DNA of 37,515 bases from an uncultured Bacteroidales bacterium (GTDB taxonomy: Bacteria; Bacteroidota; Bacteroidia; Bacteroidales; Paludibacteraceae). Below the pieces are notes generated by a model. It saw only the letters and a list, made by a program, of their open reading frames with translations, did not search any database and was not told the origin of the DNA. Below, in pieces: positions 1,363 through 33,799 of this stretch. How positions within the stretch are numbered: the stretch's first letter is position 1; every line of letters starts with the position of its first letter. The stretch lies in NCBI GenBank assembly GCA_902792535.1, contig CADAZU010000022.1, forward strand, positions 1 through 37,515. Reading direction: 5' to 3'. The position numbers and the translations under genes were made by a program.

Positions 1363-1409
1363 AGTGGGTGATTAGTGGGTGATTAGTGGGTGATTAGTGG
1401 GTTGTTAGT
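1363..1409. repeat. 11-base tandem repeat, four copies
   Basis: The unit AGTGGGTGATT occurs three times exactly and a fourth time as AGTGGGTTGTT. It is intergenic between the BspA-like gene and korA, in neither promoter core. Confidence 0.9.
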
Positions 1410-1483
1410 ACGACATCACCGAGAGGAAAACGGCAAATCTTTTACTCAAAACATATATTTTTATGATAAAAACGCCGTCATTC

Positions 1484-1514
1484 TTGCACAATTCAGAAAA
1501 AAGCAGTATCTTTG
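1484..1514 (+). promoter_or_regulatory. Promoter of the korAB operon
   Basis: TTG (1484-1486), 20 bases, TATCTTTG (1507-1514), then CAGC. The expected transcript start near 1520 leaves a leader of about 25 bases before the GTG at 1545, which supports that start codon. Confidence 0.82.
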
Positions 1515-1544
1515 CAGCAAATTTAATACCAAACACAAAAGATA

Positions 1545-3470
1545 GTGAAAAACATTACAGTTCGATTTTGCGGAGATTCGGGCGACGGAATGCAGCTGAC
1601 GGGCAATATGTTTGCCCAGTTGGCGGCAGAGATGGGTAACGAGATCTCCACGTTGCCGGACTTTCCGGCTGAGATTCGTGCGCCGCAAGGCACCTTAGGC
1701 GGCGTGAGTGCTTTCCAAGTGGAGCTGGGGCAGGAGGTTTATACCTCGGGTGACAAAGCGGATGTAGTGGTAGCAATGAATGCTGCTGCGTTGAAAGTGT
1801 GTACATTAGGTTCGCATTTCAACCACCCGCAGGCGCATTTCGATGAGGAGTTTTCTTTGTTCCACAGGCACGCGATTCTAATTGTAGATACGGATTCGCT
1901 GACCGACAAAGACCTTGAGAAAGCACAGTATCACACGCCTAATCCCTTTGAGGAACTGGGTATTCCGGAGAGCGTGCAGATTGTGCCGGTAGCGTTGACG
2001 ACGCTTACCAAAGAGGCGTTAAAGGATTCCGGCATGGACAACAAATCCGTACTCAAATGCCGGAATATGTTTGCGCTGGGTCTGATCTACTGGCTGTTCG
2101 ACGAACCGATGGAGAAAGCCATTCACCTTCTCGAAGAGAAGTTCAAGAAGAAACCTGCGCTCGTTGCTCCGAACACCAAAGTCATGGTGGATGGATACAA
2201 CTACGGTCAAAACCTCGCTCTCAACGTGCAGCAAGTGCACCTTGACCAAGTACCAAGTGACCAAGTACTAAGTGACCAAGTGACCAAGTGCACCTACACC
2301 TCCATCGCGGGTAACAAGGCGACGGCCTGGGGACTGATTGCTGCGGCAGAGAAAGCCGGTAAACGGCTGTTCTTGGGTTCGTATCCGATCACGCCGGCGA
2401 CGGATATTCTGCATGAACTGGCAGCACGCAAGGACATGAATGTCATGGCTATTCAGGCGGAGGACGAGATAGCAGGTGTGTGCACGGCTATCGGAGCGGC
2501 TTTTGCCGGCGATCTGGCTTGTACGAGTACGAGCGGTCCCGGTCTGAGTCTCAAATCCGAAGCCATCGGTCTTGCCGTCATGGCGGAACTGCCTTTAGTA
2601 GTGATTGACGTACAGCGCGGCGGTCCTTCAACAGGTCTGCCTACTAAAACTGAACAGACGGACTTGCTGCAAGCCCTGTATGGCAGAAACGGCGAGTGTC
2701 CGGCTGTGGTGATTGCCGCCTCATCCTCTGCGAACTGCTTTGACTACGCGTACGAGGCATGTAAGATCGCGCTGGAGAACATGACACCGGTTATCTTATT
2801 GACCGACACCTATCTGGCAAACGGAACGGCGCTCTGGCGGATTCCCAAACTGGCGGAACTGCCGGAGATCCATCCGCAGACCGTTCCCGAAGAACTGAAA
2901 GGACATTATAATCCCGCGTTGCGCGACGCGCGCGGCGTGCGTTATTGGGCTTTCCCCGGAATGGAAGGATACGAGCACCGCAACATCGGTCTGGAGCGCG
3001 ATGCGGAGAAGGGCACGATCTCTACTAACCCCGAGAACCACGAGCAGATGGTACTCGCCCGCAAACACAAAATCGAGCAGATTGCCAACAGTATTCCTAA
3101 TCTTCAAATCATCCATACGGCTTCAGCCGATCGTTCGAGGCTTTGCCGAGATAAGAAATCTTCGAATCCTCAAATCCCCATGAGCGATACGCTCCTTGTC
3201 GGCTGGGGTAGTACCGAGGGGCATCTCCATGCGGCTGCCAACGAGTTGAACTGCGCGCTCGCGCATTTCAATTACATCTGTCCGCTGCCGAAGAATACGC
3301 ACGAAATACTGAGCCAATACAAGCGAATTGTTGTTTGCGAACTGAATACGGGTCAATTTGCAGCGTATCTTCGCGCGCAATTCCCGGACCTGCACATCGA
3401 ACAATACAACGAGATTCAGGGACAGCCGTTTGCGGTGGAGCGCATTGTTAACTTTGTAAAAAATAACTAG
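1545..3470 (+). CDS. korA: 2-oxoacid:ferredoxin oxidoreductase, fused gamma-alpha subunit
   Basis: This is the KorA subunit of a thiamine-dependent 2-oxoacid (2-oxoglutarate type) ferredoxin oxidoreductase, which oxidises a 2-oxoacid plus CoA to acyl-CoA, CO2 and reduced ferredoxin in the cytoplasm. The 641 residues carry an N-terminal gamma domain (GDSGDGMQLTGNMFAQL, residues 9-25; FPAEIRAPQGTLGG near 40-53). From about residue 250 comes the alpha domain, with GSYPITPATDILHEL, a conserved QAEDEIA and TSTSGPGLSL. The start is GTG at 1545, set by the promoter just upstream. korB follows after 40 bases. Residues 234-250 (VPSDQVLSDQV theme) are encoded by a degenerate tandem repeat exactly at the domain junction, where length variation should be tolerated. 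Substrate preference cannot be read from sequence; 2-oxoglutarate is the usual assignment for this fused form. Confidence 0.9.
   Translation: MKNITVRFCGDSGDGMQLTGNMFAQLAAEMGNEISTLPDFPAEIRAPQGTLGGVSAFQVELGQEVYTSGDKADVVVAMNAAALKVCTLGSHFNHPQAHFDEEFSLFHRHAILIVDTDSLTDKDLEKAQYHTPNPFEELGIPESVQIVPVALTTLTKEALKDSGMDNKSVLKCRNMFALGLIYWLFDEPMEKAIHLLEEKFKKKPALVAPNTKVMVDGYNYGQNLALNVQQVHLDQVPSDQVLSDQVTKCTYTSIAGNKATAWGLIAAAEKAGKRLFLGSYPITPATDILHELAARKDMNVMAIQAEDEIAGVCTAIGAAFAGDLACTSTSGPGLSLKSEAIGLAVMAELPLVVIDVQRGGPSTGLPTKTEQTDLLQALYGRNGECPAVVIAASSSANCFDYAYEACKIALENMTPVILLTDTYLANGTALWRIPKLAELPEIHPQTVPEELKGHYNPALRDARGVRYWAFPGMEGYEHRNIGLERDAEKGTISTNPENHEQMVLARKHKIEQIANSIPNLQIIHTASADRSRLCRDKKSSNPQIPMSDTLLVGWGSTEGHLHAAANELNCALAHFNYICPLPKNTHEILSQYKRIVVCELNTGQFAAYLRAQFPDLHIEQYNEIQGQPFAVERIVNFVKNN
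2244..2293 (+). repeat. In-frame degenerate repeat (AAGTACC/AAGTGACC family) in korA
   Basis: Alternating GTACCAA and GTGACCAA units, about six copies, encode V-P-S-D-Q-V-L-S-D-Q-V-T-K at the gamma-alpha linker. The combined unit is 15 bases, which preserves reading frame. Confidence 0.88.
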
Positions 3471-3506
3471 GCAAACTAGTATGACTATAAACTAGAAGAA
3501 CTAGAA
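3464..3506. repeat. ACTAG-rich repeat tract between korA and korB
   Basis: Four copies of A(A)ACTAG, irregularly spaced, span the korA stop codon (TAG 3468-3470) and fill the gap to korB. No promoter form is visible here. Confidence 0.6.
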
Positions 3507-3510
3507 TATT

Positions 3511-4554
3511 ATGGAAGCATCTCAATTCAAATCCGATCAATATGTACGTTTCTGTCCGGGTTGCGGCGACCACGCTATCTGCATGGCGCTTCAGAAAGCC
3601 ATGGCGCAAATAGGAATCCCGACTCACCAAGTGGCTGTGATCTCCGGCATCGGTTGTTCCAGCCGAATGCCGCACTATTTGAACACGTATGGTTTTAATA
3701 CCATCCACGGCCGCGGCGGAGCTATCGCTACGGGCGTGAAGACAAGCCATCCGGAGCTGACCGTTTGGCAGATGAGCGGCGACGGCGACTGCCTCGCTAT
3801 CGGAGGAAACCATTTCATTCACGAGATCCGCAGAAACGTCGATCTCAATGTGTGTCTGTTCAACAACCGAATCTACGGTCTGACCAAAGGTCAGTACTCG
3901 CCCACCAGCCCCAAAGGGTTTGTCTCCAAATCCTCTCCTTTCGGAACGGTAGAGCGTCCGTTCGTGCCGGCAGAACTGGTTCTCGGCGCAAGAGGAACCT
4001 TCTTTGCCCGCACGCTGGATGTAGATGTGCCAACGACGGTGGATTGCCTCGTTGCAGCGCAGCAGCACAAAGGAGCGTCGATCGTAGAATGTCTCGTTAA
4101 CTGTGTGATTTTCAATAACGGAACACATTCATGGATCGCCGATCGCGAACAGCGCGAGGAGCACAGTATCATTCTCCGCCACGGCGAGAAAATGATCTTC
4201 GGCAAGAACAAAGACAAAGGTTTGGCTGTAGAGATCGACCCGCAGACCTTTGTTCCGCGGCTGATAGTTGTTCCGGCGGACGATGAGCGCGTGCTTGTTC
4301 ATGACGCGCACCAGCAAGATCCGACACTCCATAGACTCCTTGCCCTCATGGGACAAGAGCGAAATCTGGAAGTACCAAGTGCACAAGTACCAAGTACCAA
4401 GGATGAATTGCCGATCGCACTCGGTGTCATTCGCGATGTGGAGGCAGAGACCTATAACGATGCGGTAAATAACCAGATAGCCGAGGTACGCGGAAAAGCT
4501 AAGGCGAAGACCTTCGACGAACTGACCGCCACGTTGGAGCAATGGACCATGTGA
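3511..4554 (+). CDS. korB: 2-oxoacid:ferredoxin oxidoreductase, beta subunit
   Basis: KorB binds thiamine diphosphate and one [4Fe-4S] cluster and pairs with the KorA product upstream. The 347 residues show FCPGCGDHAIC (C15, C18), GIGCSSR (C49) and C198 in VECLVNC, the four cluster cysteines of this family. The TPP motif runs from GDGD (90-93) to NN (118-119). IYGLTKGQYSPTSP follows, as is typical of KorB/PorB beta chains. The start is ATG at 3511. Residues 287-298 come from the same AAGTACC repeat family found in korA and lie in the variable C-terminal region. Transcription is with korA. No separate ferredoxin-like delta subunit is encoded nearby, as expected for the two-subunit KorAB form. 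Confidence 0.92.
   Translation: MEASQFKSDQYVRFCPGCGDHAICMALQKAMAQIGIPTHQVAVISGIGCSSRMPHYLNTYGFNTIHGRGGAIATGVKTSHPELTVWQMSGDGDCLAIGGNHFIHEIRRNVDLNVCLFNNRIYGLTKGQYSPTSPKGFVSKSSPFGTVERPFVPAELVLGARGTFFARTLDVDVPTTVDCLVAAQQHKGASIVECLVNCVIFNNGTHSWIADREQREEHSIILRHGEKMIFGKNKDKGLAVEIDPQTFVPRLIVVPADDERVLVHDAHQQDPTLHRLLALMGQERNLEVPSAQVPSTKDELPIALGVIRDVEAETYNDAVNNQIAEVRGKAKAKTFDELTATLEQWTM
4370..4402 (+). repeat. In-frame AAGTACC repeat in korB
   Basis: AAGTACC, AAGTGCAC, AAGTACC and AAGTACC in tandem encode V-P-S-A-Q-V-P-S-T-K near the korB C-terminus. Confidence 0.85.
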
Positions 4555-4676: not shown

Positions 4677-4704
4677 CACCGTATTTAATAGGGCTATTAA
4701 AGGC

Positions 4705-6534
4705 ATGTATCAGTTAGGAATTGACATAGGAAGTACCACCATAAAGATGGCTTTGCTGAAAGTTTTAAGTAACCAAGTACTAAGTGACCAAGGACAAAGT
4801 ACCAAGGAGGTGGTAGCGACGGCTTATGAGCGGCATAATGCGGCTCCGGCGGTGGTGGGGAAAGAGATGCTGAAGAGGATGCTTGAATCAGTAGAAATGG
4901 GTGAGGAGATAAGTATTGCTATCACCGGGTCTGTGGGAATGGGTTATGCAAGCCGTTTAGGTGTGCCGTTTGTGCAGGAAGTGGTTGCAGCAGCCGAGGT
5001 GGTGAAACAATTATATCCCGAGGTGCATACCTTGGTGGATATAGGCGGCGAGGATAGCAAGATGATTTTCTTCGAGCCGGGGCGTGTGCCGGATATGCGA
5101 ATGAACGGCAACTGCGCAGGCGGAACGGGTGCGTTTATAGACCAGACTGCCACATTGCTTGGCGTGGACGTGACGGAGATTAACGGCTTGGCAGCACAGG
5201 CGGAGCACGTCTATCCGATCGCTTCCCGATGCGGCGTGTTCAGCAAGACGGATATTCAGAACCTCATCTCGCGGTCGGTGAGCAAAGCAGATATAGCCGC
5301 TTCTATGCTGAATGCTGTTTCCATGCAAGTGGTGAGCGCCCTTGCGCGCGGAACGGAGATCTTACCGAAAGTACTGCTTTGCGGCGGACCGTTTGCTTAT
5401 ATCCCTGAACTGCGGAAGCACCTGCAAAAGGCGATAAATGTGAGTGAAGAAGATATAGTAGTGCCGGAGCATAGCCAGTTTGTGCCGGCTATCGGAACAG
5501 CCTTGTTAAGTACCAAGGGGCAAAGTACCAAGTACGACATATCGCACGCGCGTACCTTATTTGATAATACGGACGACAAGACAGCCGACTTGACGCACAC
5601 TTTGCCGCCTTTGTTCGGCAGCGAAGAGGAATATAAGGAGTGGCTAAAAGATAAAAACCTCACCCCAACCCTCTCCATAAGAGAGGGGGCTTCTCCCCTT
5701 TGTGGCAAAGGGAGAGAGGTGCGCTATTTCCTCGGGGTGGATAGCGGAAGTACGACCACAAAAATCGTGCTCTTGGACGAAGAGGGCAGGCTGGCGTACA
5801 AGGACTACAGCTACAACAACGGCAACTCATACAACGCTTTCTTATCCGCCATGCAGCGAATGAACGAGGTGATGGGTGGCGACATTGAGATCGCCGGCAG
5901 TTGCTCAACGGGTTATGGCGAACAGTTGCTCAAGACCGCTTTTAGCTTGGACTACGGTATCGTAGAGACGATGGCGCATTTTACAGCGGCTAAGTCGATG
6001 GTGACGGAGGTGTCTTTCATTCTGGATATTGGCGGACAGGATATGAAAGCGATTTTCGTGGAAAACGGTTCTATCCGGCGAATAGAGATCAACGAAGCGT
6101 GTTCTTCAGGTTGCGGCAGTTTTATCATGACGTTTGCCAAACAATTAGGTTATGAAGTGGGTGAGTTCGCGCACATGGCGACCTTGGCGCAACACCCATA
6201 CGACCTTGGTACCCGTTGCACGGTGTTTATGAACAGCAAGGTTAAACAGGCGATGCGCGAGGGAGCCAAGATAGATGACATAGCCGCCGGATTCAGTTAT
6301 TCCGTGATCAAGAACTGTCTGTATAAAGTGTTGAAACTGCAGTCTTTTGACCAGTTGGGCGAACATATCATGGTACAAGGCGGTACGTTCCGAAACCATT
6401 CGGTAGTGCGGGCTTTGGAGATCTTGACAGGCAAGGATGTGCAATTCAGCCCGATTCCTGAGTTGATGGGTGCGTACGGGTGCGCGTTGTATGCCATGAG
6501 GCAGTTCAGAACCATAGACGTATCAGGAGAATAA
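4705..6534 (+). CDS. Two-domain BadF/HgdC-type CoA-dehydratase activase
   Basis: The product is an ATP-hydrolysing activase of the BadF/BadG/BcrA/BcrD (HgdC) family. Such proteins inject a high-energy electron from ferredoxin or flavodoxin into 2-hydroxyacyl-CoA dehydratases or benzoyl-CoA reductases. It has 609 residues and two ASKHA domains. The first starts GIDIGSTTIK and has cluster cysteines C137 (GNCAGGTGAF) and C176 (SRCGVFSKTD). The second starts GVDSGSTTTK near residue 343, with C466/C470 (EACSSGCGSF) and C505 (TRCTVF). The start at 4705 follows from the promoter position. Repeat-derived inserts occupy residues 21-35 and 268-278, and a palindromic element residues 319-338 between the domains. 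The next gene encodes the DUF2229/HgdB-like part. In many anaerobes these parts form one polypeptide of about 1,400 residues. Substrate is unknown. Confidence 0.88.
   Translation: MYQLGIDIGSTTIKMALLKVLSNQVLSDQGQSTKEVVATAYERHNAAPAVVGKEMLKRMLESVEMGEEISIAITGSVGMGYASRLGVPFVQEVVAAAEVVKQLYPEVHTLVDIGGEDSKMIFFEPGRVPDMRMNGNCAGGTGAFIDQTATLLGVDVTEINGLAAQAEHVYPIASRCGVFSKTDIQNLISRSVSKADIAASMLNAVSMQVVSALARGTEILPKVLLCGGPFAYIPELRKHLQKAINVSEEDIVVPEHSQFVPAIGTALLSTKGQSTKYDISHARTLFDNTDDKTADLTHTLPPLFGSEEEYKEWLKDKNLTPTLSIREGASPLCGKGREVRYFLGVDSGSTTTKIVLLDEEGRLAYKDYSYNNGNSYNAFLSAMQRMNEVMGGDIEIAGSCSTGYGEQLLKTAFSLDYGIVETMAHFTAAKSMVTEVSFILDIGGQDMKAIFVENGSIRRIEINEACSSGCGSFIMTFAKQLGYEVGEFAHMATLAQHPYDLGTRCTVFMNSKVKQAMREGAKIDDIAAGFSYSVIKNCLYKVLKLQSFDQLGEHIMVQGGTFRNHSVVRALEILTGKDVQFSPIPELMGAYGCALYAMRQFRTIDVSGE
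4766..4808 (+). repeat. In-frame AAGT-ACC/GACC repeat, first activase domain
   Basis: Tandem AAGTAACC, AAGTACT, AAGTGACC, AAGGACA and AAGTACC units encode L-S-N-Q-V-L-S-D-Q-G-Q-S-T-K just after the first strand of the N-terminal ATPase domain, a surprising place for an insert. Confidence 0.85.
5507..5536 (+). repeat. In-frame AAGTACC repeat, end of first activase domain
   Basis: Units of AAGTACC(AA)G encode L-S-T-K-G-Q-S-T-K at residues 268-278, at the edge of the first domain. Confidence 0.8.
5661..5716. repeat. Palindromic REP-like element inside the activase gene
   Basis: Two perfect 7-base-pair hairpins sit side by side in frame: CCCTCTC/GAGAGGG (5669-5687, loop of 5) and CCCTTTG/CAAAGGG (5696-5712, loop of 3). 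They follow CACCCCAA. The segment encodes the linker between the two ATPase domains. Confidence 0.75.
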
Positions 6535-6575
6535 CCTACTAATAACCTACTAGTAACCTAATAATATCCTAATAG
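6533..6575. repeat. 11-base tandem repeat at the activase gene junction
   Basis: About four copies of AATAACCTACT (later copies degenerate to AGTAACCTAAT and AATATCCTAAT) run from the first activase stop codon to the ATG of the next gene. The tract contains stops in frame. Confidence 0.85.
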
Positions 6576-9101
6576 ATGCAGCTAAAAGAACTGATAGAAG
6601 AAAAGACGTTTGAGCAACGGGATGAGGTCTGTCCGGGGTGTCAGAATAAGTGCCAGGTTCGGTGCTATACGTTTGGGAACGGTCGCACGTATTTCTCGGG
6701 CAATAACTGTGAGCGGGTTTATTCCAACCATGCGGAGGACGCGCGGCAAGGCGTGAACATGTTTGAGGAGAAATACAAGATGTTGTTTGCGTCCGGCAAG
6801 GAGGGTGCAAAGGTCCATACCGCTCCGCTAAATGGGCAGGCAACTCCTGTCTCCGCCGGACATCAGATTACTATCGGTATTCCGCGTGGGTTGGGGATGT
6901 ATGAGAATTGGCCGTTCTGGCGGACGTTTTTCGCTTGTTGCGGGATACGGACGGTATTGAGCGGCGTGAGTACGAACAGGTTGTACGAGAAAGGCGTTCG
7001 GACGATTGTAGCAGATAATATCTGTTTTCCTGCCAAACTGATGCACGGACATGTGATGGATCTGATCAACAAAGGCGTGGATCGTATTTTCTATCCGTGG
7101 GTGGTTTATGAGCGCGCGGAGGACGAGAAAGCCAAGAATAGTTTCAACTGTCCGATCGTCAGCGGCTACTCGGATGTGCTGAAAAGTTCCATCCGTCCTG
7201 AGGAGAAATACAATGTGCCGCTCGATGCTCCCACTATTTCGTTCAAAGATGAGGAACTGCTGCGGAGTTCGCTCATAGAATACGTCGGGAAAGTACTAAG
7301 TGACCAAGTACCAAGAACGAAGGAAATTGTGAACGCGGCTGTGACGCAAGCGATTGAGGCGCAAAAGGAATATCTGGAGGCCTTGGAGCGGCGGGATTTA
7401 GAGGTGCTTGAACAAGCTAAGAAAGACGGAAGGATGGTCATTTTGCTTGCTGCGCGGCCGTATCATATCGATCCGTTAATTCAGCATAAGATAGCCGATG
7501 CGATCGCTACAATGGGTATTGACGTGGTGACGGAGAATATCGCTACCCACGAAGGGCAAGGTGTGTATGACGAGATCAACGCTTTGTGTCAATGGTCATA
7601 TCCGAATAGGATATTCAAGGCAGCGCATTTTGTGGGCAACAGCGATTACAAAGGTTTGCATATGGTGCAACTGACTTCGTTCGGTTGCGGACCCGATGCG
7701 TTTATCTTGGACGAAGTGCGAGGGATTTTAGGACGCTACGGCAAGAACCTGACCGTGCTGAAAATCGACGATGTGAATAACATCGGTTCTTTGCGGCTGC
7801 GGGTGCGGTCGCTGGTGGAAAGCGTGAAGGGAAGTGACCAAGGTACCAAGTACCAAGTACAAAAATCCAGCAAGCCTTGGACGACGAAGCCGTTTGAGGC
7901 GGAAGACAAAGAGCGAGTGATATTAGCGCCTTATTTCGCAGAGGGATATAATGAGTTTCTGCCGACGATTTTTGGCTTGGCGGGATATAAGTTAGTGCCG
8001 CTTCCGATGGGGACGCAAGCCGATGCAGAGGAAGGGCTGCGGAGTGCGAATAATGATATTTGCTACCCGGCGACGATAGTGGTTGGCAGTTTGTTGCGGG
8101 CTCTCAAATCAGGTGCGTATGACCTGAATAATACGGCTGTTTCGATCACGCAGACCGGAGGTCAATGCCGCGCCAGCAATTATTATTCGCTGATCAAGAA
8201 TGCGCTTGTGGCAGCAGGCATGAGCCAAGTGCCGGTAATCTCGGTTGCCATCGGTCCGGACCAGAAGAACGCGCAGCCGGGATTTACGATCAAATGGAGC
8301 GCATTGATCCGCCCTACATTAGAGGCATTGTATTTCGCGGACGCTTTGGCAAAATTATATTATCCGGCTGCGCCGCGGGAGAAAGAGCAGGGTAGTGCGC
8401 GCAAACTATACGACCATTATTTGGAGGCTGTGCAACCGCTGCTCGCCAAACGCAATTACCGCGGAATGCGGCGAATGATGGCGGAAGCGGTGGAGGCTTT
8501 TGATGCGATTTGTGACCATTCGAAGAAAGTGCCGCAAGTTGGAGTAGTCGGAGAGATATACGTCAAATACAATTCGTTTAGCAATAAGGAGGTTATGAAT
8601 TGGCTTATTGCGCACGGGGTAGAGGTGGTGCCTCCGGCTATTACGGGATTTTTCTCCACCTCTATTCCAAACGCGTATATCTTTCAAAACCAGCATATCC
8701 GAAAGGACGGTTTGAAGCCCTGGCAGGCACGAATACTGAACCGCGTGTTGCGACATTACGCACACGTGTACGACCGGATCTGTGCGCCGTATCCGTACTA
8801 TCGTCCGTTCTCGGATATCATGGATGTATGGCAGTCGAGCCGAAAAGTGATCAACTCGGCAGCGGATTTCGGAGAAGGGTGGTTCTTGCCGGGCGAGATA
8901 TGTGAGTTAGCCGAAAGCGGCGTGAAGAAAGTGGTGTCGCTGCAGCCTTTCGGGTGCATTGCCAACCATATTATCAGCAAAGGAATCGAACGGCGGTACA
9001 AAGATCTATACCCGGATTTGTCTTTGCTGTTCCTGGATTTCGACGCCGGAACAAGCGAGGCAAACGTTGTGAACAGGTTGCATTTTTTAATTGATAACTA
9101 A
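6576..9101 (+). CDS. DUF2229 / HgdB-like CoA-enzyme activase partner
   Basis: This 841-residue protein looks like the C-terminal half of the large activase-related proteins found in clostridia and Bacteroidales. A cysteine-rich N-terminus (C19, C22, C26, C30 and C45, in VCPGCQNKCQVRC and NNCERV) could bind an Fe-S cluster. A DUF2229 region follows (IGIPRGLGMYENWPF, then VADNICFPAKLMHGH). The rest is related to the HgdB/FldB dehydratase subunits (RPYHIDPLIQHK; TQTGGQCRASNYYSLIKN; VGEIYVKYNSFSN; LQPFGCIANHI). The start is ATG at 6576, 41 bases after the first activase gene and probably in the same transcript. Repeat-encoded inserts lie at residues 239-248 and 419-430, which look like inter-domain linkers. 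Whether it dehydrates a hydroxyacyl-CoA or only supports another enzyme is not clear from sequence. Confidence 0.85.
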   Translation: MQLKELIEEKTFEQRDEVCPGCQNKCQVRCYTFGNGRTYFSGNNCERVYSNHAEDARQGVNMFEEKYKMLFASGKEGAKVHTAPLNGQATPVSAGHQITIGIPRGLGMYENWPFWRTFFACCGIRTVLSGVSTNRLYEKGVRTIVADNICFPAKLMHGHVMDLINKGVDRIFYPWVVYERAEDEKAKNSFNCPIVSGYSDVLKSSIRPEEKYNVPLDAPTISFKDEELLRSSLIEYVGKVLSDQVPRTKEIVNAAVTQAIEAQKEYLEALERRDLEVLEQAKKDGRMVILLAARPYHIDPLIQHKIADAIATMGIDVVTENIATHEGQGVYDEINALCQWSYPNRIFKAAHFVGNSDYKGLHMVQLTSFGCGPDAFILDEVRGILGRYGKNLTVLKIDDVNNIGSLRLRVRSLVESVKGSDQGTKYQVQKSSKPWTTKPFEAEDKERVILAPYFAEGYNEFLPTIFGLAGYKLVPLPMGTQADAEEGLRSANNDICYPATIVVGSLLRALKSGAYDLNNTAVSITQTGGQCRASNYYSLIKNALVAAGMSQVPVISVAIGPDQKNAQPGFTIKWSALIRPTLEALYFADALAKLYYPAAPREKEQGSARKLYDHYLEAVQPLLAKRNYRGMRRMMAEAVEAFDAICDHSKKVPQVGVVGEIYVKYNSFSNKEVMNWLIAHGVEVVPPAITGFFSTSIPNAYIFQNQHIRKDGLKPWQARILNRVLRHYAHVYDRICAPYPYYRPFSDIMDVWQSSRKVINSAADFGEGWFLPGEICELAESGVKKVVSLQPFGCIANHIISKGIERRYKDLYPDLSLLFLDFDAGTSEANVVNRLHFLIDN
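7290..7318 (+). repeat. In-frame AAGTACT/AAGTGACC repeat, DUF2229 protein
   Basis: Three units encode V-L-S-D-Q-V-P-R-T-K after the DUF2229 region, in the same frame as in korA. Confidence 0.82.
7831..7862 (+). repeat. Second in-frame repeat, DUF2229 protein
   Basis: AAGTGACC, AAGGTACC, AAGTACC and AAGTAC units encode G-S-D-Q-G-T-K-Y-Q-V-Q-K in the linker before the HgdB-like part. Confidence 0.82.
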
Positions 9102-10431: not shown

Positions 10432-11379
10432 TTATCTGTATTTGGCTTCGTCGCAGTCGCCTAAAAGCGAGAGGTACGACTCATAGCGGCTCATAGCAAT
10501 CTCTCCGTGCTCTACGGCTTCGATCACCGCGCAACCGGGTTCGTTGGTGTGCGTGCAGTTGTTGAAACGGCAGTCCGCGCTTACCCGGAATATCTCGCGG
10601 AAATAATGGGATACCTCTTCTTTGGACATATCAACCGACCCGAACCCTTTGATCCCCGGGGTGTCAATCACCGCGCCGTCCGGCAGGAAATACATTTCGC
10701 TGAAGGTGGTGGTGTGCATACCTTTGTCGTGCGCGTTGGATATCTTACCTGTGCGGGTGAGTTCTTTGCCGAAAAGGGCATTCAGAAGGGTACTTTTACC
10801 GACGCCCGAATTGCCGGAGAGCAGGGTAGTTTTGCCTGCCAAAAGAGGTAAAATATCTGATGGATGAAGGCTGATCGCCGATAGCTCTATCGTTTCGTAA
10901 CCGATTGATTCATATAGCGAACGCAGTTCTGCGAGTTGAGCTAATTCGTCCTCGTTCAGCAAATCCACCTTATTAAAGATAAGGATCGCGCGCACGCGAT
11001 ACGCTTCGCAGGTAGCGAGGAAACGGTCAATAAAAGTCGTGGAAGTAGCCGGATGGTTGACGGTTACGATGAGCGCCACTTGGTCGATATTGGCTGCCAG
11101 AATATGGCTCTCTTTGCTGAGATTCGTGGAGCGGCGGATGATATAATTGCGCCGCGGCTCTACCTCTGTAATCCAAAAGACGCTGTGTCCTTGGTCACTT
11201 TGTACTTTGTCACTTAGTACTTCAACCCAGTCTCCCACGGCGACAGGGTTGGTCGTACGAATACCGCGAATGCGGAAATTGCCTTTGATATGACATTCCA
11301 CACTCAAACCATCGTCCATCCGGACGATGTAACTGCTACCCGTTGACTTAATGACTAATCCGCGCACTTTGTAGTCCAA
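10432..11379 (-). CDS. rsgA: Ribosome small-subunit-dependent GTPase A
   Basis: RsgA helps the 30S subunit mature and is a circularly permuted GTPase. The 315 residues begin with an OB-fold ([20 protein letters not shown]), followed by G4 (IFNKVDLL), then G1 ([17 protein letters not shown]), then G3 (DTPGIKGFG). A C-terminal zinc knuckle follows with spacing C-x4-C-x-H-x5-C ([14 protein letters not shown]). The start is ATG at 11379, five bases after frr. Residues 53-64 ([11 protein letters not shown]) are encoded by the same repeat family seen in the kor-activase genes and fall in an OB-fold loop. Confidence 0.95.
11188..11222 (-). repeat. In-frame AAGTAC(T/A)AAGTGAC repeat in rsgA
   Basis: Read on the coding strand, four units encode [11 protein letters not shown]. 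Orientation and frame relative to the gene match the copies in korA and the activase genes. Confidence 0.85.
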
Positions 11380-13946: not shown

Positions 13947-15047
13947 CTATAATTGTTTTAAGTTATGCTTTTCTGTAATTATTCCGTTTTGCACGACGAT
14001 CATACCCGGATTGGCGCGCACGATCGTTTTCAACGTCACGGGGTCGGTATAGCAGAAAACGCGCTCTGCGGTCTCTTCGTCCCAACCCATTTGCTGCGCA
14101 AAATCATATATGTCTTCTTCGCCGGATCCGGTTAAGCAATACACCGACGAGATACCGACGAGATACCGTGCTATCTTTTGCGCTTGCTCCAGGTTGGTCT
14201 TTTTGAGGTCGTACATAATAATCAGCGTCACGGGTTCTTCGCTCTCCAGAATGTCAAATGTGATGTCCTCAAAGTCCATGGTCATAATCTCGAAGTCATG
14301 AATCGGCGCTTCGAAGCCTTTCTTGACCAGCACGGATTTCTGATCCACAAAAGTCCATGTGGTGTCGCCTTTGGGGTAGTTTTCCAATGTGAACTCCTGC
14401 TGCACGCCGTCTTTCTCGTAGATCAGCGTCGTCTCATACACATCCGGTTCGGCGTCGTCCGGAATCTCCATCAGTTCAGGGATGTTATTTCCTATTTTGT
14501 ACGGACGGAAGTCCATCGGCGGCAGATGGGTGTAACTGTATCCCATAATACCAGCAACTGCTCCAGCTCCGAGGATAGCGATACATAACTCTCCCCACCA
14601 GCTGAAGGTCTGCGGGATCGCTTTGCGGCAGAAGAGCAGAATGATTACCAGACTCAGAAAAACGATGTTTTTCCAGAATGTCTGCCAGTTGGTCAACACG
14701 AGTGCGTCGCCGAAACAGCCGCAGTCGGAGACAGGATTCGTCAGCGCGATCCACAGCGTCAGCGGCGTCATGACCAGATAGAAAGCCAGCGAGAGCCAAC
14801 TCGTCCAGTTCGTGCGCACGTTGAACAGCATACACACGCCCAGCAGCCATTCCACCAAGATCAGACACACGGCGGCTACTCCTGCCAGCGGCAGCAAATC
14901 CGTAAAGAACCCGCCGAACGCCTTGAGGTAATCCTCAATCTTATAAACCGTTCCCAGCGGGTCAACCGCTTTCACAAAACCCGAGAAAAGGAACGTGAGC
15001 GCGAGCAATGTGCGGCTGATGGAGCCGATGATATGTTTAGCCTTCAT
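13947..15047 (-). CDS. DoxX/MauE-like membrane protein with C-terminal extension
   Basis: The product has 366 residues. The N-terminal half is a four-helix membrane domain (LLALTFLFSGFVKAVDPLG; DCGCFGD with a CGC redox-like motif; IVFLSLVIILLF), as in DoxX/MauE proteins. One more membrane segment follows, then a soluble domain of about 190 residues that resembles a thioredoxin-like fold seen in Bacteroidetes DoxX proteins; that fold assignment is tentative. A role in periplasmic redox or thiol chemistry is inferred. Its start overlaps the end of the DUF1599 gene by 11 bases. Residues 293-303 (YLVGISSVY) are encoded by a repeat also present in gltX. Confidence 0.75.
   Translation of the reverse strand: MKAKHIIGSISRTLLALTFLFSGFVKAVDPLGTVYKIEDYLKAFGGFFTDLLPLAGVAAVCLILVEWLLGVCMLFNVRTNWTSWLSLAFYLVMTPLTLWIALTNPVSDCGCFGDALVLTNWQTFWKNIVFLSLVIILLFCRKAIPQTFSWWGELCIAILGAGAVAGIMGYSYTHLPPMDFRPYKIGNNIPELMEIPDDAEPDVYETTLIYEKDGVQQEFTLENYPKGDTTWTFVDQKSVLVKKGFEAPIHDFEIMTMDFEDITFDILESEEPVTLIIMYDLKKTNLEQAQKIARYLVGISSVYCLTGSGEEDIYDFAQQMGWDEETAERVFCYTDPVTLKTIVRANPGMIVVQNGIITEKHNLKQL
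14141..14170 (-). repeat. CGGTATCTCGT tandem repeat in the DoxX-like gene
   Basis: Two and a half copies of an 11-base unit. 23 bases (14148-14170) are identical to 32374-32396 in gltX but are read in a different frame there. Confidence 0.85.
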
Positions 15048-16912: not shown

Positions 16913-16913
16913 A

Positions 16914-16960
16914 AATCACAAATAATAAATTACAAATTTCAAATCTCAAATTACAAATCC
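16914..16960. repeat. AAATTAC-type heptamer tract between hisS and kdtA
   Basis: CAAATAATAAATTACAAAT, then TTCAAATCTC, then AAATTACAAAT: degenerate units of about 7-10 bases fill the gap between the two genes and touch the kdtA stop. Confidence 0.75.
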
Positions 16961-18336: not shown

Positions 18337-18370
18337 AAATTACCAATGACCAATTACCAATGACCAATAA
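18337..18370. repeat. Heptamer repeat forming the tsaD start region
   Basis: AATTACC, AATGACC, AATTACC, AATGACC, AAT: a clean period-7 repeat. The second AATGACC supplies the tsaD start codon. The first supplies an upstream ATG (18346) that opens a five-codon frame ending in TGA overlapping the real ATG. Confidence 0.9.
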
Positions 18371-24453: not shown

Positions 24454-24553
24454 AGGCTAACTGGTCATCCTTCATAGGCTAACCGGTCATCCTTCATAGG
24501 CTAACCGGTCGTCCTTCATAGGCTAACCGGTCATCCTTCATAGGCTAACCGGC
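24445..24553. repeat. 22-base tandem repeat in the uvrA leader, about five copies
   Basis: The unit on the coding strand is CCGGTTAGCCTATGAAGGA plus TGA. ATGs fall at 24541, 24519, 24497, 24475 and 24453. Because 22 is not a multiple of three, each upstream ATG opens a short frame out of phase with uvrA. The units abut without spacers, so this is not a CRISPR. Confidence 0.93.
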
Positions 24554-24997: not shown

Positions 24998-25648
24998 ATG
25001 GCAATGCACTTGAAAACCATAGTAATTAACCGTTTGAAATGGGATGGATTCGATTTTGTCTCACTTCCGGCGTCTGCCACGCCTCACAAACGGGGTGTGC
25101 ACTATTTCCATGCCTGCGTGGGAGTGAAAGCCTTGTGGGGTGCCATGGACACACGTAAAGAAGGCCAGCACTACAAAAAGCGCATCGTCGTTCGCCCTTC
25201 CCGCTTCCGTGACGGACTCTTCGAACTCTACACATACCATTTCCCGAAACACTGGTCTGCCGCCTGTGTCGCCAACCGCGAGTTGATCAAAGAAGCCCAA
25301 CGTCTGGCGCACGCCATCGAGCATGACCATTCCTTGGAAGCTCTCACTTGGCGCGTACGCTTCTTCAACCATTATTTTACGGTCGTCAAAGGCGGCGCAA
25401 AGCCTGAAGAAGGCATGAAACGCTATTCGCGTTTTTATCAATATACCTATGTGGCTATTTACCGCCAGCTGCAGGCGGAGCGCAAGAAAGCGCAGGAAGA
25501 GGTCAATTTGGACGATTTGAGTTTTGAGGAAATCAATGTCTCGACCATTCCATTGAAGGGGAACAGGGCATTCTCGCGCACTTTTTGGCAGGAATGGGAC
25601 GCAACCAGGGCGCAAAGACCCATAAAACCACCTGTTTTCCAAACATAA
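24998..25648 (+). CDS. Uncharacterised 216-residue protein
   Basis: I do not recognise this family. From the ATG at 24998 (an alternative is 25004) it encodes a soluble basic protein, rich in aromatic residues and arginine/histidine, with no signal peptide or membrane segment. Notable stretches are GVHYFHACVGVKALWGAMD, KKRIVVRPSRFRDGLFELYT, WRVRFFNHYFTVVKGG and RFYQYTYVAIYRQLQAERK. A charged C-terminal part follows (EEVNLDDLSFEEINVS). Coding character is good: consistent codon use and GC matching neighbours. It is a monocistronic unit with its own strong promoter and a leader of more than 120 bases, between uvrA and the rplM operon. Abundant arginine and aromatic residues would suit nucleic-acid binding, but this is a guess. 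Confidence 0.75.
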   Translation: MAMHLKTIVINRLKWDGFDFVSLPASATPHKRGVHYFHACVGVKALWGAMDTRKEGQHYKKRIVVRPSRFRDGLFELYTYHFPKHWSAACVANRELIKEAQRLAHAIEHDHSLEALTWRVRFFNHYFTVVKGGAKPEEGMKRYSRFYQYTYVAIYRQLQAERKKAQEEVNLDDLSFEEINVSTIPLKGNRAFSRTFWQEWDATRAQRPIKPPVFQT

Positions 25649-26860: not shown

Positions 26861-26893
26861 TTTATTATTCATTAATCATTAATCATTAAAAAT
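26861..26893. repeat. ATTAATC heptamer tract before rpsB
   Basis: ATTATTC, ATTAATC, ATTAATC, ATTAAAA lead directly into the GTG start of rpsB. Period 7. Confidence 0.85.
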
Positions 26894-26894
26894 T

Positions 26895-27722
26895 GTGAGA
26901 ACAAATTTTGATCAACTTCTCGAGGCTGGCGCACATTTCGGCCACCTCAAACGCAAATGGAATCCGGCTATGGCTCCGTACATCTACATGGAGCGCAACG
27001 GTATTCACATCATCGACCTCAACAAAACTGCCCTGAAGATTGACGAGGCAGCAGAGGCACTCAAGAACCTCGCTCGCAGCGGCCGCAAAGTACTCTTTGT
27101 CGGTACCAAGAAACAGGCTCAAGAGGTAGTTGCTGCACACGCTCAGGAAATCGGTATGCCGTACATCACCGAGCGTTGGGCTGGCGGTATGCTGACCAAC
27201 TTCCCGACCATCCGCAAGGCGGTTAAGAAAATGGGTCAGATCGACAAGATGATGACCGACGGTACGCTGGAGAACGTTTCCAAACGTGAGAAACTGCAAA
27301 TCACCCGTCAACGCGAGAAACTGGAGAAGAACCTCGGTTCTATCGCAGACATGACCCGCCTTCCGAGCGCTGTGTTTGTAGTCGATGTAATGAAAGAGCA
27401 CATCGCTGTAGCAGAGGCTAACCGCCTCGGAATCCCTGTATTCGGTATCGTAGATACGAACTCGAACCCGAACAACATCGATTTCGTTATTCCTGCTAAT
27501 GACGATGCTACCAAAGCTATCGACGTCATCCTCGGTGCTGTATGCGACGCTATCAAAGAGGGTCTCGAGGAGCGCAAGGTAGAGAAAGCAGACGAAGAGG
27601 CTGCAGCAGAGCAGGCTAACGCAGAGGCTCCGGCACCCAAAGAGCGCCGTCAACGCATCCGCAAAGCAACTCCGAAAGCAGAGAAACCCGCCGAGGAGAA
27701 ACCCGCAGAGGACGCAGAGTAA
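26895..27722 (+). CDS. rpsB: 30S ribosomal protein S2
   Basis: The 275 residues start at GTG 26895; the codon before is out of frame with a stop, so there is no longer form. RTNFDQLLEAGAHFGHLKRK, NPAMAPYIYMERNGIHIIDL and WAGGMLTNFPTIRKAVKKM are diagnostic of S2. The C-terminal 45 residues are a low-complexity Ala/Glu/Lys/Pro tail, common in this phylum. It lies 34 bases before tsf, a gap made almost entirely of a heptamer repeat. Confidence 0.97.
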   Translation: MRTNFDQLLEAGAHFGHLKRKWNPAMAPYIYMERNGIHIIDLNKTALKIDEAAEALKNLARSGRKVLFVGTKKQAQEVVAAHAQEIGMPYITERWAGGMLTNFPTIRKAVKKMGQIDKMMTDGTLENVSKREKLQITRQREKLEKNLGSIADMTRLPSAVFVVDVMKEHIAVAEANRLGIPVFGIVDTNSNPNNIDFVIPANDDATKAIDVILGAVCDAIKEGLEERKVEKADEEAAAEQANAEAPAPKERRQRIRKATPKAEKPAEEKPAEDAE

Positions 27723-27754
27723 TTGATAATTGATAATTGATAATTGATAATTAA
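27721..27754. repeat. AATTGAT heptamer repeat between rpsB and tsf
   Basis: Four exact copies of AATTGAT followed by AATTAATT fill the whole space between the two genes and overlap the rpsB stop. Confidence 0.95.
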
Positions 27755-30575: not shown

Positions 30576-32201
30576 GACCTGCTCACGGCAGAATTGATCC
30601 TGCTCGGCGTACTCCAGCATGGCATTCAGCTTGGAGACATAGCGTGCTTGGCGTTCTTCGAAGATAGCGGGCGAGAGGTAGATTTCTGCTTCTCGCTCGT
30701 TTGTCATAACGAGGCTGGATCCCACCGTGCGAGGGATATACGTGATAATTCCCCGCTGCGCCAGAGAAACCAATATCTGGTGGGTTGCTTTATTGTCCGC
30801 TTCGCGCACATACTGCAGGTCGGTATAGATACCCGAATATTGGCGCATGAGCTGGTCTAATAGCTGCGCTTGCTCCGTAGAAAGGTTGTAGGCTCCCAAC
30901 TCGTGCCTCGGCACGCGGATCTGCACGCGCGGCTGGGTCTCGTACTCCTCCTCGAAATGGATATACCCCGCTTGGGTCAGGATATGCAGGGCGGAGTAGG
31001 TCTGGATCACCGGCAGTTTCATGACGTGGCATAGCTGGTCCATGTGTACCGCAAAGCGATGTCCCAAACCACTACCGGCTCCTATTTGCAGAAAATCCAT
31101 GGTCTTGTGATAGACCTGCTCCACAAACTCCTTCGGCGGATAGGTGTCCACAATCCGTTTCTTCGTTTTCGCTTTGTCCTCCTGTTCGTTGAAGAGCAGT
31201 ACGGCATAGGCGGTCTTACCGTCTCGTCCGGCGCGTCCGGCTTCCTGGTAATAACTCTCTATCGTGTTCGGCAGGTCCACATGGATGACCACCCGCACAT
31301 CGGATTTGTCGATTCCCATTCCGAACGCGTTGGTAGCCACGATGATACGCGTCTGTCCGTTCTTCCATGCCTCCTGCCGCTCGTTGCGTTCTTGTGTTGT
31401 TAATCCGGCATGATAGTACTGCGAATTGAGTGCCGTGGATTGAGAGTTGAGCCATTCGGAGAGTTCTTGCGCCCGTTTGCGATTGCGGACATAGACGATT
31501 GCGCTGCCCGGCACGCGGGAAAGGATATGCGCCACTTGTGCCGCTTTGTTGTCCGTCCGGCGAACGATATATTGCAAGTTCTCGCGGTGGAAAGACTTGC
31601 GGAGAACGTGCTTCTCTTGAAAGCCCAGCTTGTCCTGTATATCGTCGATCGTTTCCGGCGTCGCCGTAGCCGTGAGTGCCAAAACCGGCACATCCGGCAG
31701 CAGTTCACGAATCGCTGCAATCTTCAGATACGACGGACGAAAATCATAACCCCACTGCGAGATACAATGCGCTTCGTCCACGGCTATCAGCCCGATCGGT
31801 AATTGCGCCAGACGCTTGCGGAACTCCTCGCTCTCCAGCCGCTCCGGCGAGCAATAGAGGAAATGGTATGGCCCGTAGAGACAGTTATCCAGCGCGACGC
31901 GCTGTTTGTCCCAACTCATGCCGGTATAGACCGCCGCCGCATGAATACCTTTTTTCTGCAAGTTCTCCACTTGGTCTTTCATCAGCGCAATGAGCGGCGT
32001 GATGACGAGGCACAGCCGCTTCTCCGGATTCTCGTTCGCCATGACGAGGGTAGGTACCTGAAAACAGAGGCTCTTTCCCCCGCCGGTCGGCATGAGTGCC
32101 AGTGTGTCGCGTCCCGCCAGCACGGACTCAACGATCTCCGCCTGCAACGGGCGGAAATCGTCAAATCCGAAATAGGTATGTAGCGCTTCGCGTGGTGTCA
32201 T
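30486..32201 (-). CDS. recQ: RecQ-family ATP-dependent DNA helicase
   Basis: RecQ unwinds DNA 3' to 5' in recombination repair. The 571 residues from the ATG at 32201 show [14 protein letters not shown] (motif 0), [14 protein letters not shown] (Walker A), [18 protein letters not shown] (DEAH box), ALTATATP and [16 protein letters not shown] with [11 protein letters not shown] (motifs V-VI). A winged-helix-like region follows. The zinc cysteines ([13 protein letters not shown], then ACGHCDVC) come last, only ten residues before the end. In E. coli RecQ the zinc module precedes the winged helix and an HRDC domain follows; here HRDC is absent. An open upstream extension overlaps gltX and lacks RecQ features. 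The start overlaps the gltX stop by four bases. Confidence 0.93.
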
Positions 32202-33799
32202 AGGCGTGTAAGCGCTGTGCGGACACGGCGGAGGGTTTCTTCCTTGCCGAGCACATCGGTGATATTCCAGATATGCGGACCGCGGGCGGCGCCGACGAGA
32301 CAGATACGGAAGGCATTCATGACGATACCCACGCCGTATTCCTTCTCCGCAATCCATGGCATGACGACACCGTCGAGATACCGACGAGATACCGTGTTTC
32401 CCTCTGCGTCAATTTCATCGTGACCCTCATACCAATTCTCCTCACTCACACCCTCTAAAATAGTGAGCAGCTCCTGCATGTGCTTCGGCGAGTCCTCTTT
32501 CCAGCGCTTTTTAAGCGATTTCTCGTCGTACTCGGTCGGAGCGACAAAGAAGAAATTGACCTGCTCCCAGAGTTCCGGCACGAAGTTCACACGGTCTTTG
32601 GTTAAGCCGATCACTTTGGCTACCATCGATTTATCAATGTTTCGATATGTCGATTCATCGAGGTGCTCTTTCAAAACCGGCATAAACATCTCTGCGAGCT
32701 CCTCGTTGGAGCGGAGTTGGAGGTATTGGTGGTTGAACCATTTGCCTTTCTCATAGTCGAACTTGGCTCCTGACTTGGACACGCGGTCGAGGGAGAAATC
32801 CTTGATCAGTTCATCCATGGTGTACATCTCCTGGTCGCCGGAACCATGCCAGCCAAGGAGCGCGAGGAAGTTAATCACCGCTTCCGGCAAGTATCCGCTC
32901 TCGCGGTAACCGGATGAAACGGTGCCATCTTTCTGGTTGTGGAACTCCAGCGGGAAGACGGGGAAACCGAGACGGTCACCGTCGCGCTTGGAGAGTTTGC
33001 CGTTGCCATCGGGCTTGAGCAGCAGCGGCAGGTGAGCAAACTGCGGCATGGTGTCCTCCCATCCGAACGCGCGGTAAAGGAGCACGTGGAGCGGGGCGGA
33101 AGGCAACCATTCCTCGCCGCGGATGACATGGCTTATCTCCATCAGATGGTCGTCCACGATGTTCGCCAGATGGTAGGTGGGCAGGTCGTCCGCCGACTTA
33201 TACAGCACTTTGTCGTCCAGGATATTGCTGTTGATCACCACTTCGCCGCGGATCAAGTCATGCACATGCACGTCCTCGTCCGGCTCGACCTTGAAGCGGA
33301 CAACATATTTCTCGCCTTTGTCCAGCAACGCTTGCACCTCGTCTGCGCTCATGGTCAGCGAGTTGCGCATTTGCATGCGTGTGCGTGCATCGTACTGGAA
33401 ATTAGGAATCTCCGCGCGCTTGGCATCCAGTTCCTCCGGCGTGTCAAACGCAATGTATGCATGCCCGGAATCCAGCAGTTGCTTCACGTACTGGTGGTAG
33501 ATCTCGCGTCGCTCGGACTGGCGGTACGGTCCGTGTTCTCCGACCGCCTCAATCTCTTTCGTGCCTTTCTTCAGCCGCATACCTTCATCAATACCGATAC
33601 CCAGCCAATCGAGGGCTTCCAGAATATACTCCTCTGCGCCCGGCACAAAACGGGTACTATCCGTATCCTCAATACGCAGCAGCATGTCGCCGCCGTGCTG
33701 GCGGGCAAACAGATAATTGTACAAAGCGGTTCGAACACCGCCGATGTGTAATGCGCCCGTAGGAGACGGCGCAAAACGAACTCTTACTCTTCTTTCCAT
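32198..33799 (-). CDS. gltX: Glutamyl-tRNA synthetase
   Basis: GltX charges tRNA-Glu. The 533 residues show the HIGH-type signature ([20 protein letters not shown]), [26 protein letters not shown] and the KMSKS-type loop GKLSKRDGD. The C-terminal anticodon-binding region follows. Residues 468-476 (VSRRYLDG) are encoded by a CGGTATCTCGT repeat shared with the DoxX-like gene; the surrounding region ([14 protein letters not shown]) looks like a variable insert. It lies 28 bases after serB and overlaps the recQ start. Confidence 0.96.
32371..32396 (-). repeat. CGGTATCTCGT repeat in gltX
   Basis: Two copies of the 11-base unit. 32374-32396 is identical over 23 bases to 14148-14170, but encodes T-V-S-R-R-Y-L-D here and R-Y-L-V-G-I-S there. 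Confidence 0.85.

Follow-up and report, generated by a model that had tools for sequence, protein, structure and literature searches.

How short tandem arrays come to lie between and inside core genes is the question raised by a stretch of 37,515 nucleotides (nt), hereafter the window, from an uncultured Bacteroidales bacterium of the Paludibacteraceae (GenBank assembly GCA_902792535.1, contig CADAZU010000022.1, positions 1 to 37,515). The window is contig C22 of the genome that we designate G000 (2.37 Mb in 84 contigs, 83% complete), of which we analysed a sample of 437 kb, namely the window and a further 400 kb. Its nearest named kin, as judged by UvrA, are UBA3653 (L036) and RGIG4295 (L037, from roe deer duodenum), filed under Bacteroidales and Paludibacteraceae. 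As sister species for the comparison of alleles we used G083, seemingly the same genome as L037, with 362 kb of about 1.9 Mb analysed and a mean identity to the G000 sample of 88.7% over 93 kb (BLAST pieces, some paralogous ones included). We show below that the arrays are a trait of the genome and its genus, that their words recur at separate loci, and that they differ between sister species. Our tentative reading, to which we give a little under an even chance, is that they form a dispersed population with units of 7, 8 or 11 bases and a common vocabulary, spread by template switching or patching through short homology.

Our strict array test asks for at least 18 matches at one lag within 21 bases. 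The window contains five such runs at lag 7, three each at lags 11, 14 and 22, and two at lag 15, as against none in ten dinucleotide shuffles of it; the further 400 kb of G000 contains 21 at lag 7, again with none in shuffles. The tracts are thus genuine and well above chance expectation, and strict runs occur genome-wide in the 437 kb sampled, as had been expected in a sequence-only reading of the window. By simple, purpose-made gene callers, used for both the coding/non-coding split and the orientation counts given below, the coding runs in the 437 kb number 15, 9, 8 and 7 at lags 7, 14, 15 and 21, versus 0-0.4 in codon-shuffled genes, and the non-coding runs 10, 7, 13 and 11 at lags 7, 8, 11 and 22. 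While 15 of the 25 strict heptamer runs lie inside genes, about 90% of the sampled DNA is coding by the same gene caller, and the arrays are therefore denser between genes. Lag 15 is chiefly coding (8 runs versus 1 non-coding); the period-15 arrays in tracts of the AAGTACC type are a 7+8 alternation of AAGTACC and AAGTGACC, which adds five codons and keeps the frame, a structure that the sequence-only reading had not described. A search for a constant core with variable columns within the units, which would have hinted at templated synthesis, gave a null result on 314 loosely defined arrays (16 at p < 0.05), a set that admits chance arrays and so carries little weight in either direction.

Tandem Repeats Finder reported 43 rows for the window at a score of at least 30. 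All eight intergenic tracts named in the sequence-only reading reappear among these, each with a row no more than 9 bases from the ends given there. That reading had also placed tracts in eleven genes, each of which holds at least one row: nine of them stand (korA, korB, both activase genes, rsgA, a BT_3928-family DoxX/MauE-like gene, an exosortase-family gene, uvrA and gltX), whereas hisS and an antiporter gene drop out. Alignment of the host proteins with homologues, for kor and rsgA with G083 only and for the other aligned tracts also with wider kin, showed the tracts to differ or to be missing in many of them, whereas the antiporter and hisS residues are common to kin. All 14 kin compared, out of 39, retain the residue pattern seen in the antiporter row (20556-20578). 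The hisS row (16215-16234) represents one of two old variants of this stretch and also occurs in distant kin (4 among the 14 compared, out of 16). Rows in tsf and in the tail of rpsB likewise look like ordinary residues by comparison with kin.

The arrays are not peculiar to G000. Across 52 genus-like loci (973 kb) the strict test gave 102, 34, 26, 22, 14 and 8 runs at lags 7, 11, 8, 9, 6 and 10, respectively, and none at lags 4 and 5, heptamers being the commonest class of unit. In twenty stretches from genus members, five of which are masked (249 kb in all), we found 23 runs at lag 7 and a single one at lag 4, as against 2 at lag 7 in stretches from 20 genomes that represent 20 other families of the order (284 kb). 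Of these 40 stretches, six (L151, L156, L159, L168, L170 and L173; 11.3 kb) are masked, with GC 0.00, and contribute nothing to the counts. The arrays are thus a genome- and genus-wide trait of a Paludibacteraceae-like genus of gut and rumen Bacteroidales, and their rarity in stretches from other families agrees with the earlier remark that such a density inside essential genes looks unusual for a Bacteroidales genome. Some loci outside the genus-like group, including Prevotellaceae and Bacteroidaceae, also hold arrays (40 runs in 28 loci, 523 kb), and the trait is therefore not confined to the genus.

The proposal that the intragenic arrays favor linkers was borne out for korA and uvrA, the two genes tested; arrays are also found at gene junctions. 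For UvrA we surveyed 81 regions, 46 of which could be parsed with our motif. A strict period-7 array occupies the linker at residues 534-547 in 10 of these 46 homologues, one of them (L086) outside the genus-like group, and 13 qualify, the window among them, at a cut-off of 12 matches in 14; the units include AATAGCC, AATCACC, GTCAGCC, AAAATCG, AAAGTTG and others, and two further homologues have period-8 arrays. On the UvrA tree the array-free rows cluster (17 changes versus a shuffled mean of 24), yet the arrays do not trace to a single origin.

The arrays draw on a recurring set of words, comprising AAGTACC/AAGTGACC, TCAGCNN, CTCAATT, AAATCTTC and ACCYAYNAATC. AAGTACC/AAGTGACC alone builds the main tracts of five genes (korA, korB, both activase genes and rsgA), while uvrA holds a related tract. 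Hence the view that sequence families differ from tract to tract needs to be amended: words recur across the genome, whereas their make-up does differ between species. Among 140 arrays from the 437 kb, 454 of 9,730 pairs have at least three heptamers in common, whereas 30 column permutations averaged 93 such pairs and never exceeded 119. A search for AAGTACC with at most 2 mismatches, in which matches overlap within arrays and so are not counts of arrays, gave 113 matches in G000 versus 14 for the reversed control. More than 50 such matches were found in 5 of 61 genomes (G000, G008, G018, G022 and G034), against a background of up to 49 (G053) and 40 (G048) in other families and of up to 97 (G060) for reversed controls. 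CTCAATT has 119 matches in G083, 90 in G065, 61 in G018, 55 in G079, 44 in G000 and 29 in G019, with at most 11 in the other 55 of the 61 genomes; over the phylum, its array pattern occurs in 15 of 198 genomes, with at most 10 matches outside G000. The exact word AAGTACCAAGTRMC is common to both sisters, occurring 41 times in G000 and 35 times in G083, and is found in 12 of 20 genomes overall. The amplification of CTCAATT is genome-specific, and this speaks for dispersal.

Beyond single words, entire arrays recur at separate loci. The 11-mer array at 1355-1409 of the window, situated between divergent genes and composed of ACCCACTAATC as read on the minus strand, is found again exactly over 49 and 47 nt, degenerate ends included, at C1:138807 and C10:73750 of G000; the three loci share 49, 47 and 46 nt pairwise, and some flanking bases are also in common. 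Other pairs of arrays at separate loci of G000 share 40, 37, 34 and 33 nt, and in the 33-nt pair, an AAGTACC mosaic, both copies lie in open reading frames with flanks that look unrelated. In total, 205 exact matches of 22-59 nt were found between separate places, of which 41 are arrays; among the others are words resembling promoters and pieces of longer paralogues. Many of these non-array matches are AAAAAAAAGCAGTACCTTTGCA and its variants, which recur at many loci (contigs C1, C10, C11 and C22 of G000) and which we take to resemble a Bacteroidota promoter. An identical 34-nt array of the GATGTACGA type is present at C1:130839 and C1:134044, 3.2 kb apart, one copy being inside an open frame that is dxs-like by eye.

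A distinct shared element was found inside a AAATCTTC-type 8-mer array of korA (3098-3177, plus strand), which is interrupted by a 43-bp core (3113-3155, plus strand) that was absent from the earlier list of tracts. Five copies of this core occur among the compared loci longer than 3 kb. It is exact in L132 (contig C11 of G000), within an ATCAAAT array, and exact again at another place in G083 (L227), where the sequence to its right is harder to recognise as an array; 41 nt are exact in L046, inside a CAACTAT array, and a copy at 86% lies inside a AAATCTTC-type array in L076. Since the G083 alleles of both G000 core sites are arrays without the core, the arrays seem to be older than the core. 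A 29-base pattern from the core had no exact match in the viral_contigs collection, and neither the core nor four of the five arrays folded showed an excess of fold.

Arrays had been predicted to differ in close relatives, and between G000 and G083 they are indeed present or absent, or replaced. The linker of korA, the spacer between korA and korB, rsgA and the exosortase gene all have another sequence at the same site in G083, this being another repeat in the spacer and the exosortase gene, while G083 keeps the doxX-type, gltX, tsaD-side, rpsB-side and rpsB-tsf tracts, the last with one unit more. In five blocks of contig C11 (about 57 kb), a looser test (12 of 14), by which chance arrays are possible, gave 35 array sites in either genome, of which 9 are alike and 26 different, length variants counting as different. 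Further, in ten close pairs with 87-97% identity, 22 of 65 indels of 10-120 nt were of the array type, versus 67 of 3,250 random segments; the indel pattern splits any gap above 120 nt into smaller pieces, and several non-array rows in L090/L094 result from this.

We then compared the extra block with the other allele in 27 array-type indels of 15-120 nt, drawn from the ten close pairs and from G000-G083. The longest match was at most 6 nt in 19 of the 27, 7-8 nt in five and at least 9 nt in three, as against a mean of 4.1-6.0 nt for random segments. Among the 19 seedless indels, 13 have flanks that are at least 80% identical and are firm, and 6 have flanks below 80%. As deletion between units would be expected to leave a unit behind, most of the seedless indels are best read as gains or swaps of a whole block. 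Such whole-block indels, together with the identical arrays elsewhere, suggest that dispersal comes first and growth second. Accordingly, the "tendency to grow short repeats" advanced in the sequence-only reading is not supported as the main process, though differences of a unit step do exist, such as the one TAATTGA unit by which G000 and G083 differ between rpsB and tsf.

A process of the following kind could account for these observations. During replication or repair, a growing or loose single strand would pair through a few bases with an array elsewhere, and some 20-100 nt would be copied or patched in, by template switching or short-patch illegitimate recombination. Frequent arrays would therefore become the commonest donors; slippage of units could afterwards add or remove single units, and selection would retain stop-free, in-frame copies within linkers and copies that fill intergenic spacers. 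Regarding the last step, arrays in called genes show sense/antisense counts of 48/0 for TCAGCC, 33/6 for AAGTACC, 6/1 for AATCTTC and 4/4 for CTCAATT, whereas the spacers of tandem genes show no strand preference (27 C-strand, 24 G-strand and 6 even). The antisense reading of both TCAGCC and CTCAATT contains stops, and some of the CTCAATT gene calls are therefore probably wrong gene edges; some of the "antisense" AAGTACC arrays of G083 sit, by eye, directly before start codons. Insertion itself thus looks strand-neutral, with the pattern in genes seemingly arising by selection.

To identify genes that might drive the arrays, we compared 14 array-rich with 16 array-poor genomes, the latter class resting on 5-23 kb per genome and being noisy, and L037 being classed as array-rich by its CTCAATT count while its own locus has one lag-7 run. 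Repeats made by a reverse transcriptase find no support, since RVT_1 is matched in 3 of the 14 rich and 5 of the 16 poor genomes and not in G000 (83% complete). Repetitive extragenic palindromic (REP) sequences with a REP-associated tyrosine transposase (RAYT) fared no better, as 3 of the 14 array-rich and 4 of the 16 array-poor genomes have Y1_Tnp over the cut-off, and G000 has one match below it. Loss of mismatch repair was also discarded: MutS_V is over the cut-off in 30 of 30 genomes and a strong mutS-type match (E < 1e-70) is found in 29 of 30, missing only in the L037 assembly (71% complete as G083). RecJ did not separate rich from poor genomes, being matched in 29 of 30 and over the cut-off in 28. 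The clear target duplication expected of remnants of a miniature inverted-repeat transposable element or another classical transposon was not seen either: in 11 hand-picked indels of the 27, the possible duplication is 0 nt in nine and 1 and 4 nt in the other two. That RVT_1 and Y1_Tnp do not mark array-rich genomes favors the copying or patching of single strands through brief pairing. A bolder formulation, in which the clade spreads arrays of locked unit length without a known transposase or reverse transcriptase, each genome amplifying a vocabulary of its own and rewriting junctions and the linkers of essential proteins, with a geneless 43-bp core that lands inside arrays, strikes us as possible but doubtful; such arrays would be short DNA that propagates itself, with nothing needed but pairing or an unknown enzyme (e.g. 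the orphan protein described below).

Several points weigh against dispersal by copying. It leaves the preference for 7, 8 and 11 bases without explanation. Some of the other alleles hold a different array, which implies a swap rather than a plain insertion, and in these pairwise comparisons a given block difference may be either gain or loss. The sampled DNA yielded no full-length donor for any of 18 sister-specific arrays picked by hand; their longest exact copy in the same genome is 10-32 nt, mostly no longer than the copy in the other species, so that no evident bias to the own genome emerges, with 14 of 15 random control segments giving 11-17 nt and one 26. Clustering of array pairs with the same vocabulary is weak, with 18 pairs within 5 kb versus 12.4 at random and 126 of 2,000 permutations as high. 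The even sense/antisense split of CTCAATT is not predicted by selection for stop-free reading unless the gene calls are wrong, and exchange between species, to which we return below, is itself visible.

Among the other explanations, local replication slippage, an idea put forward for long simple sequence repeats (Mrazek et al. 2007, via PMC4679880) in which a partial repeat present by chance expands at its own site, appears unlikely to be the main source. It would account for the dominance of lag 7 and the near absence of lags 4 and 5 if the polymerase favored 7 nt. Mismatch repair, which does not recognise larger loops, would add to this preference, as the presence of MutS_V in all 30 genomes would leave only longer loops. 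The single-unit differences also fit it, whereas the 19 seedless alleles, the use of the same words at many loci rather than local ones, and the exact mosaics of 33-49 nt at separate loci do not. A non-autonomous mobile element, with arrays and 43-bp core moved in trans by an HUH-type enzyme, a reverse transcriptase or an orphan protein, would explain the clean block differences, the exact core in several genomes and the genome-specific amplification, and the lack of target duplication is as expected of HUH-type or strand-switch mechanisms. Moreover, a family of orphan proteins has three copies in the 437 kb of G000, two in the G083 sample and one in G018, all array-rich. We nonetheless rate this alternative as quite improbable, because the ends and lengths of the arrays are variable and their units differ, RVT_1 and Y1_Tnp are neither over the cut-off in G000 nor markers of array-rich genomes, and the orphan has no Pfam or PHROG match.

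Homologous exchange between species would instead import linker versions that evolved elsewhere. Identity between the window (1300-36910) and G083 changes in blocks of 85.6, 93.2, 83.0 and 91.8%, and G083 lacks both activase genes at the corresponding place, which together point to mosaic exchange between species; likewise, kin have either of two alternating versions of hisS residues 227-233, and many sister-specific arrays match the other species as well as their own. Yet many array differences lie within flanks of 90-99% identity, and exchange leaves the identical arrays at separate loci of one genome without explanation, making it a poor candidate for their origin. Finally, the arrays could be selected sites, i.e. 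binding sites or translation leaders kept by function, given that many occupy the entire spacer as far as the start codon and that 11-mers would come close to one helical turn. This we consider very improbable in view of the lack of strand preference in tandem spacers, the different sequences of the sisters at the same site, the lack of any Rfam match in the window, and the several different units in one UvrA linker across kin.

The orphan protein mentioned above is a possible mobile gene and a candidate driver of the arrays. It comprises 216 residues, is encoded at 24998-25648 on the plus strand of the window, and has no match in Pfam, NCBIfam, PHROG or PDB and no relative in viral_contigs. 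Further copies lie at L132 15442-15975, L134 10997-11495, L234 3661-4197, L236 3935-4537, L158 6560-7096, L057 17698-18240 and L052 16117-16497, and four of the eight copies have a similar upstream region.

Heptameric repeats are known from other bacteria, and the earlier comparison with these is justified. The STRR heptamers of filamentous cyanobacteria, one unit of which is CCCCAGT, are tandem as are those described here, differing in the host phylum and in that 8- and 11-mers also occur here; CCCCAGT is the unit that we checked. Rickettsia palindromic elements are inserted in frame in housekeeping genes, a property shared with the present arrays, but are palindromic and longer, whereas four of the five arrays folded here lack an excess of fold. 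Short-patch double illegitimate recombination, reportedly described by Harms et al. in 2016, would copy short unrelated segments into a locus and is invoked here only as a proposed mechanism.

Long simple sequence repeats with units of 5-11 nt are genome-wide and phylogenetically patchy, with heptamers the commonest, and are explained by slippage (Mrazek et al. 2007, via PMC4679880). The present arrays resemble them in unit range, in being longer than expected by chance and in the prevalence of heptamers; unlike them, they differ as blocks, share words across loci and are mostly intragenic (as per the strict heptamer runs above). TAACTGA heptamers are reported from Beggiatoaceae, cyanobacteria and five Bacteroidetes (MacGregor 2015, PMC4679880); they are direct repeats, many directly upstream of start codons and some overlapping stop codons, with reverse-oriented copies in open reading frames, and the indels between two close Cyanothece strains are mostly 7-nt steps (PMC4679880). 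Both systems are 7-nt direct repeats, with several families and core-gene linkers in our case. The mechanism named for heptamers in the parts of that paper drawn on here is slippage, mobility and horizontal transfer being raised without a mechanism (PMC4679880). GGGNATC repeats of Xanthomonas and Nostoc are genome-spread heptamers of the G-quadruplex type that are under-represented in coding regions (Rehm et al. 2015, PMC4692102); the present arrays are comparably genome-wide, but lack that unit. No tandem pairs of TAACTGA, GGGNATC or CCCCAGT were found in the window, the G000 sample, the G083 sample or the genus loci. The tandem repeats of Borgs evolve fast, lie in open reading frames and between genes, and make disordered stretches of protein (Schoelmerich et al. 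2023, PMC9879509); the Borg arrays are of independent origin, often with partial repeats in their flanks (PMC9879509). The location is thus alike, whereas here the words are common to many loci and most of the other alleles are without partial units. Bacillus genomes have tandem repeats of constant size, with units of 52 or 20-21 nt and several families per species (Subirana and Messeguer 2021, PMC8161180), similar to ours in constant unit length and multiple families and dissimilar in unit size.

In the literature searched, which covered few subscription papers, neither this clade nor the gain of blocks within core genes was described. The repeats are of a known kind, of which block gain within core genes is a new form. 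Most of the 27 sister allele pairs argue for the copying of blocks rather than for slippage as chief origin, and they make the origin of heptamer arrays testable. They also reveal a continuing supply of new peptides for the linkers of essential proteins (2-oxoacid oxidoreductase, RsgA, UvrA and GltX) and of DNA for the spacers between operon genes. Annotators and protein modellers should take note that such linkers are DNA-born rather than functional motifs.

The individual arrays of the window are distributed as follows. In korA, an in-frame AAGTACC/AAGTGACC array of period 15, in 7/8 alternation (2243-2290, plus strand), forms residues 233-249 of the interdomain linker between the Pfam domains POR (13-218) and POR_N (273-485), where G083 has a different sequence with words of the TCAG/GCTGAA type. 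The korA-korB spacer has an AACTAG-type array (3473-3503, plus strand), replaced in G083 by a GCTGAAA-type array, and korB has an AAGTACC array at residues 287-297 (4370-4401, plus strand) that is absent in G083. The plus-strand activase genes follow: the first contains an AAGTACC/AAGTGACC array at residues 48-62 (4766-4808) and an AAGTACC array at 5508-5536, a further addition to the earlier list, where STK.QST(K/R)Y-like residues occur in three kin too. An 11-mer array of AATAACCTACT (6530-6571, plus strand) fills the spacer between the two genes. The second contains AAGTACC arrays at residues 239-247 (7291-7315) and 419-429 (7832-7860), the latter linker being variable in length and residues across the 14 kin listed. 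On the minus strand, rsgA carries an AAGTACC/AAGTGACC array at residues 53-65 (11186-11222), its site in G083 being occupied by an unlike, shorter sequence within a block of 93% identity. Arrays of the 11-mer CGGTATCTCGT are found in the BT_3928-family gene (14143-14168, minus strand) and at residues 469-477 of gltX (32369-32394, minus strand); they have 23 nt in common, both are the same in G083, and that of gltX is absent in both aligned kin, L040 and L053.

The spacer of hisS and a Kdo-transferase gene is filled by a CAAATTA-type array (16913-16959, minus strand), 24 bp shorter in G083, and an AATTACC/AATGACC array between divergent genes extends up to the start of tsaD (18338-18368, plus strand) and is kept in G083 with few substitutions. 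The exosortase-family gene holds an AACTTTC array at residues 118-130 (19762-19798, plus strand), with a AAATCTTC-type array at this site in G083 and other sequences in other kin. Directly upstream of rpsB lies an ATTAATC array (26864-26889, plus strand), differing by one base in G083, and the rpsB-tsf spacer is filled by a TAATTGA array (27720-27752, plus strand), to which G083 adds one 7-bp unit. Four arrays lie on the minus strand within uvrA: GTCAGCC-type arrays in the linker at residues 534-547 (22814-22854) and at residues 377-386 (23297-23324), a GTACAAA array at residues 292-301 (23551-23580), and an AGCCATC array at residues 241-249 (23709-23731), which is absent in G083. Beside the gene, with no strand assigned, is a 22-mer array of about 4.9 near-perfect copies (24446-24552), two units of which fold better than shuffles (z -3.0). 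In L040, L042, L044, L047, L057, L075 and others, this UvrA linker (residues 534-547 in the window) is filled by a non-heptamer repeat family, GACCGTGAC.GACGTCAC.GACAG-like, that encodes the peptide VTDVTDR or VTEVTER. Lastly, a short element of the CCTCCCT...AGGGAGG type is seen in the uvrA linker of L038 and L058 and in G083 alleles of the C11 array sites.

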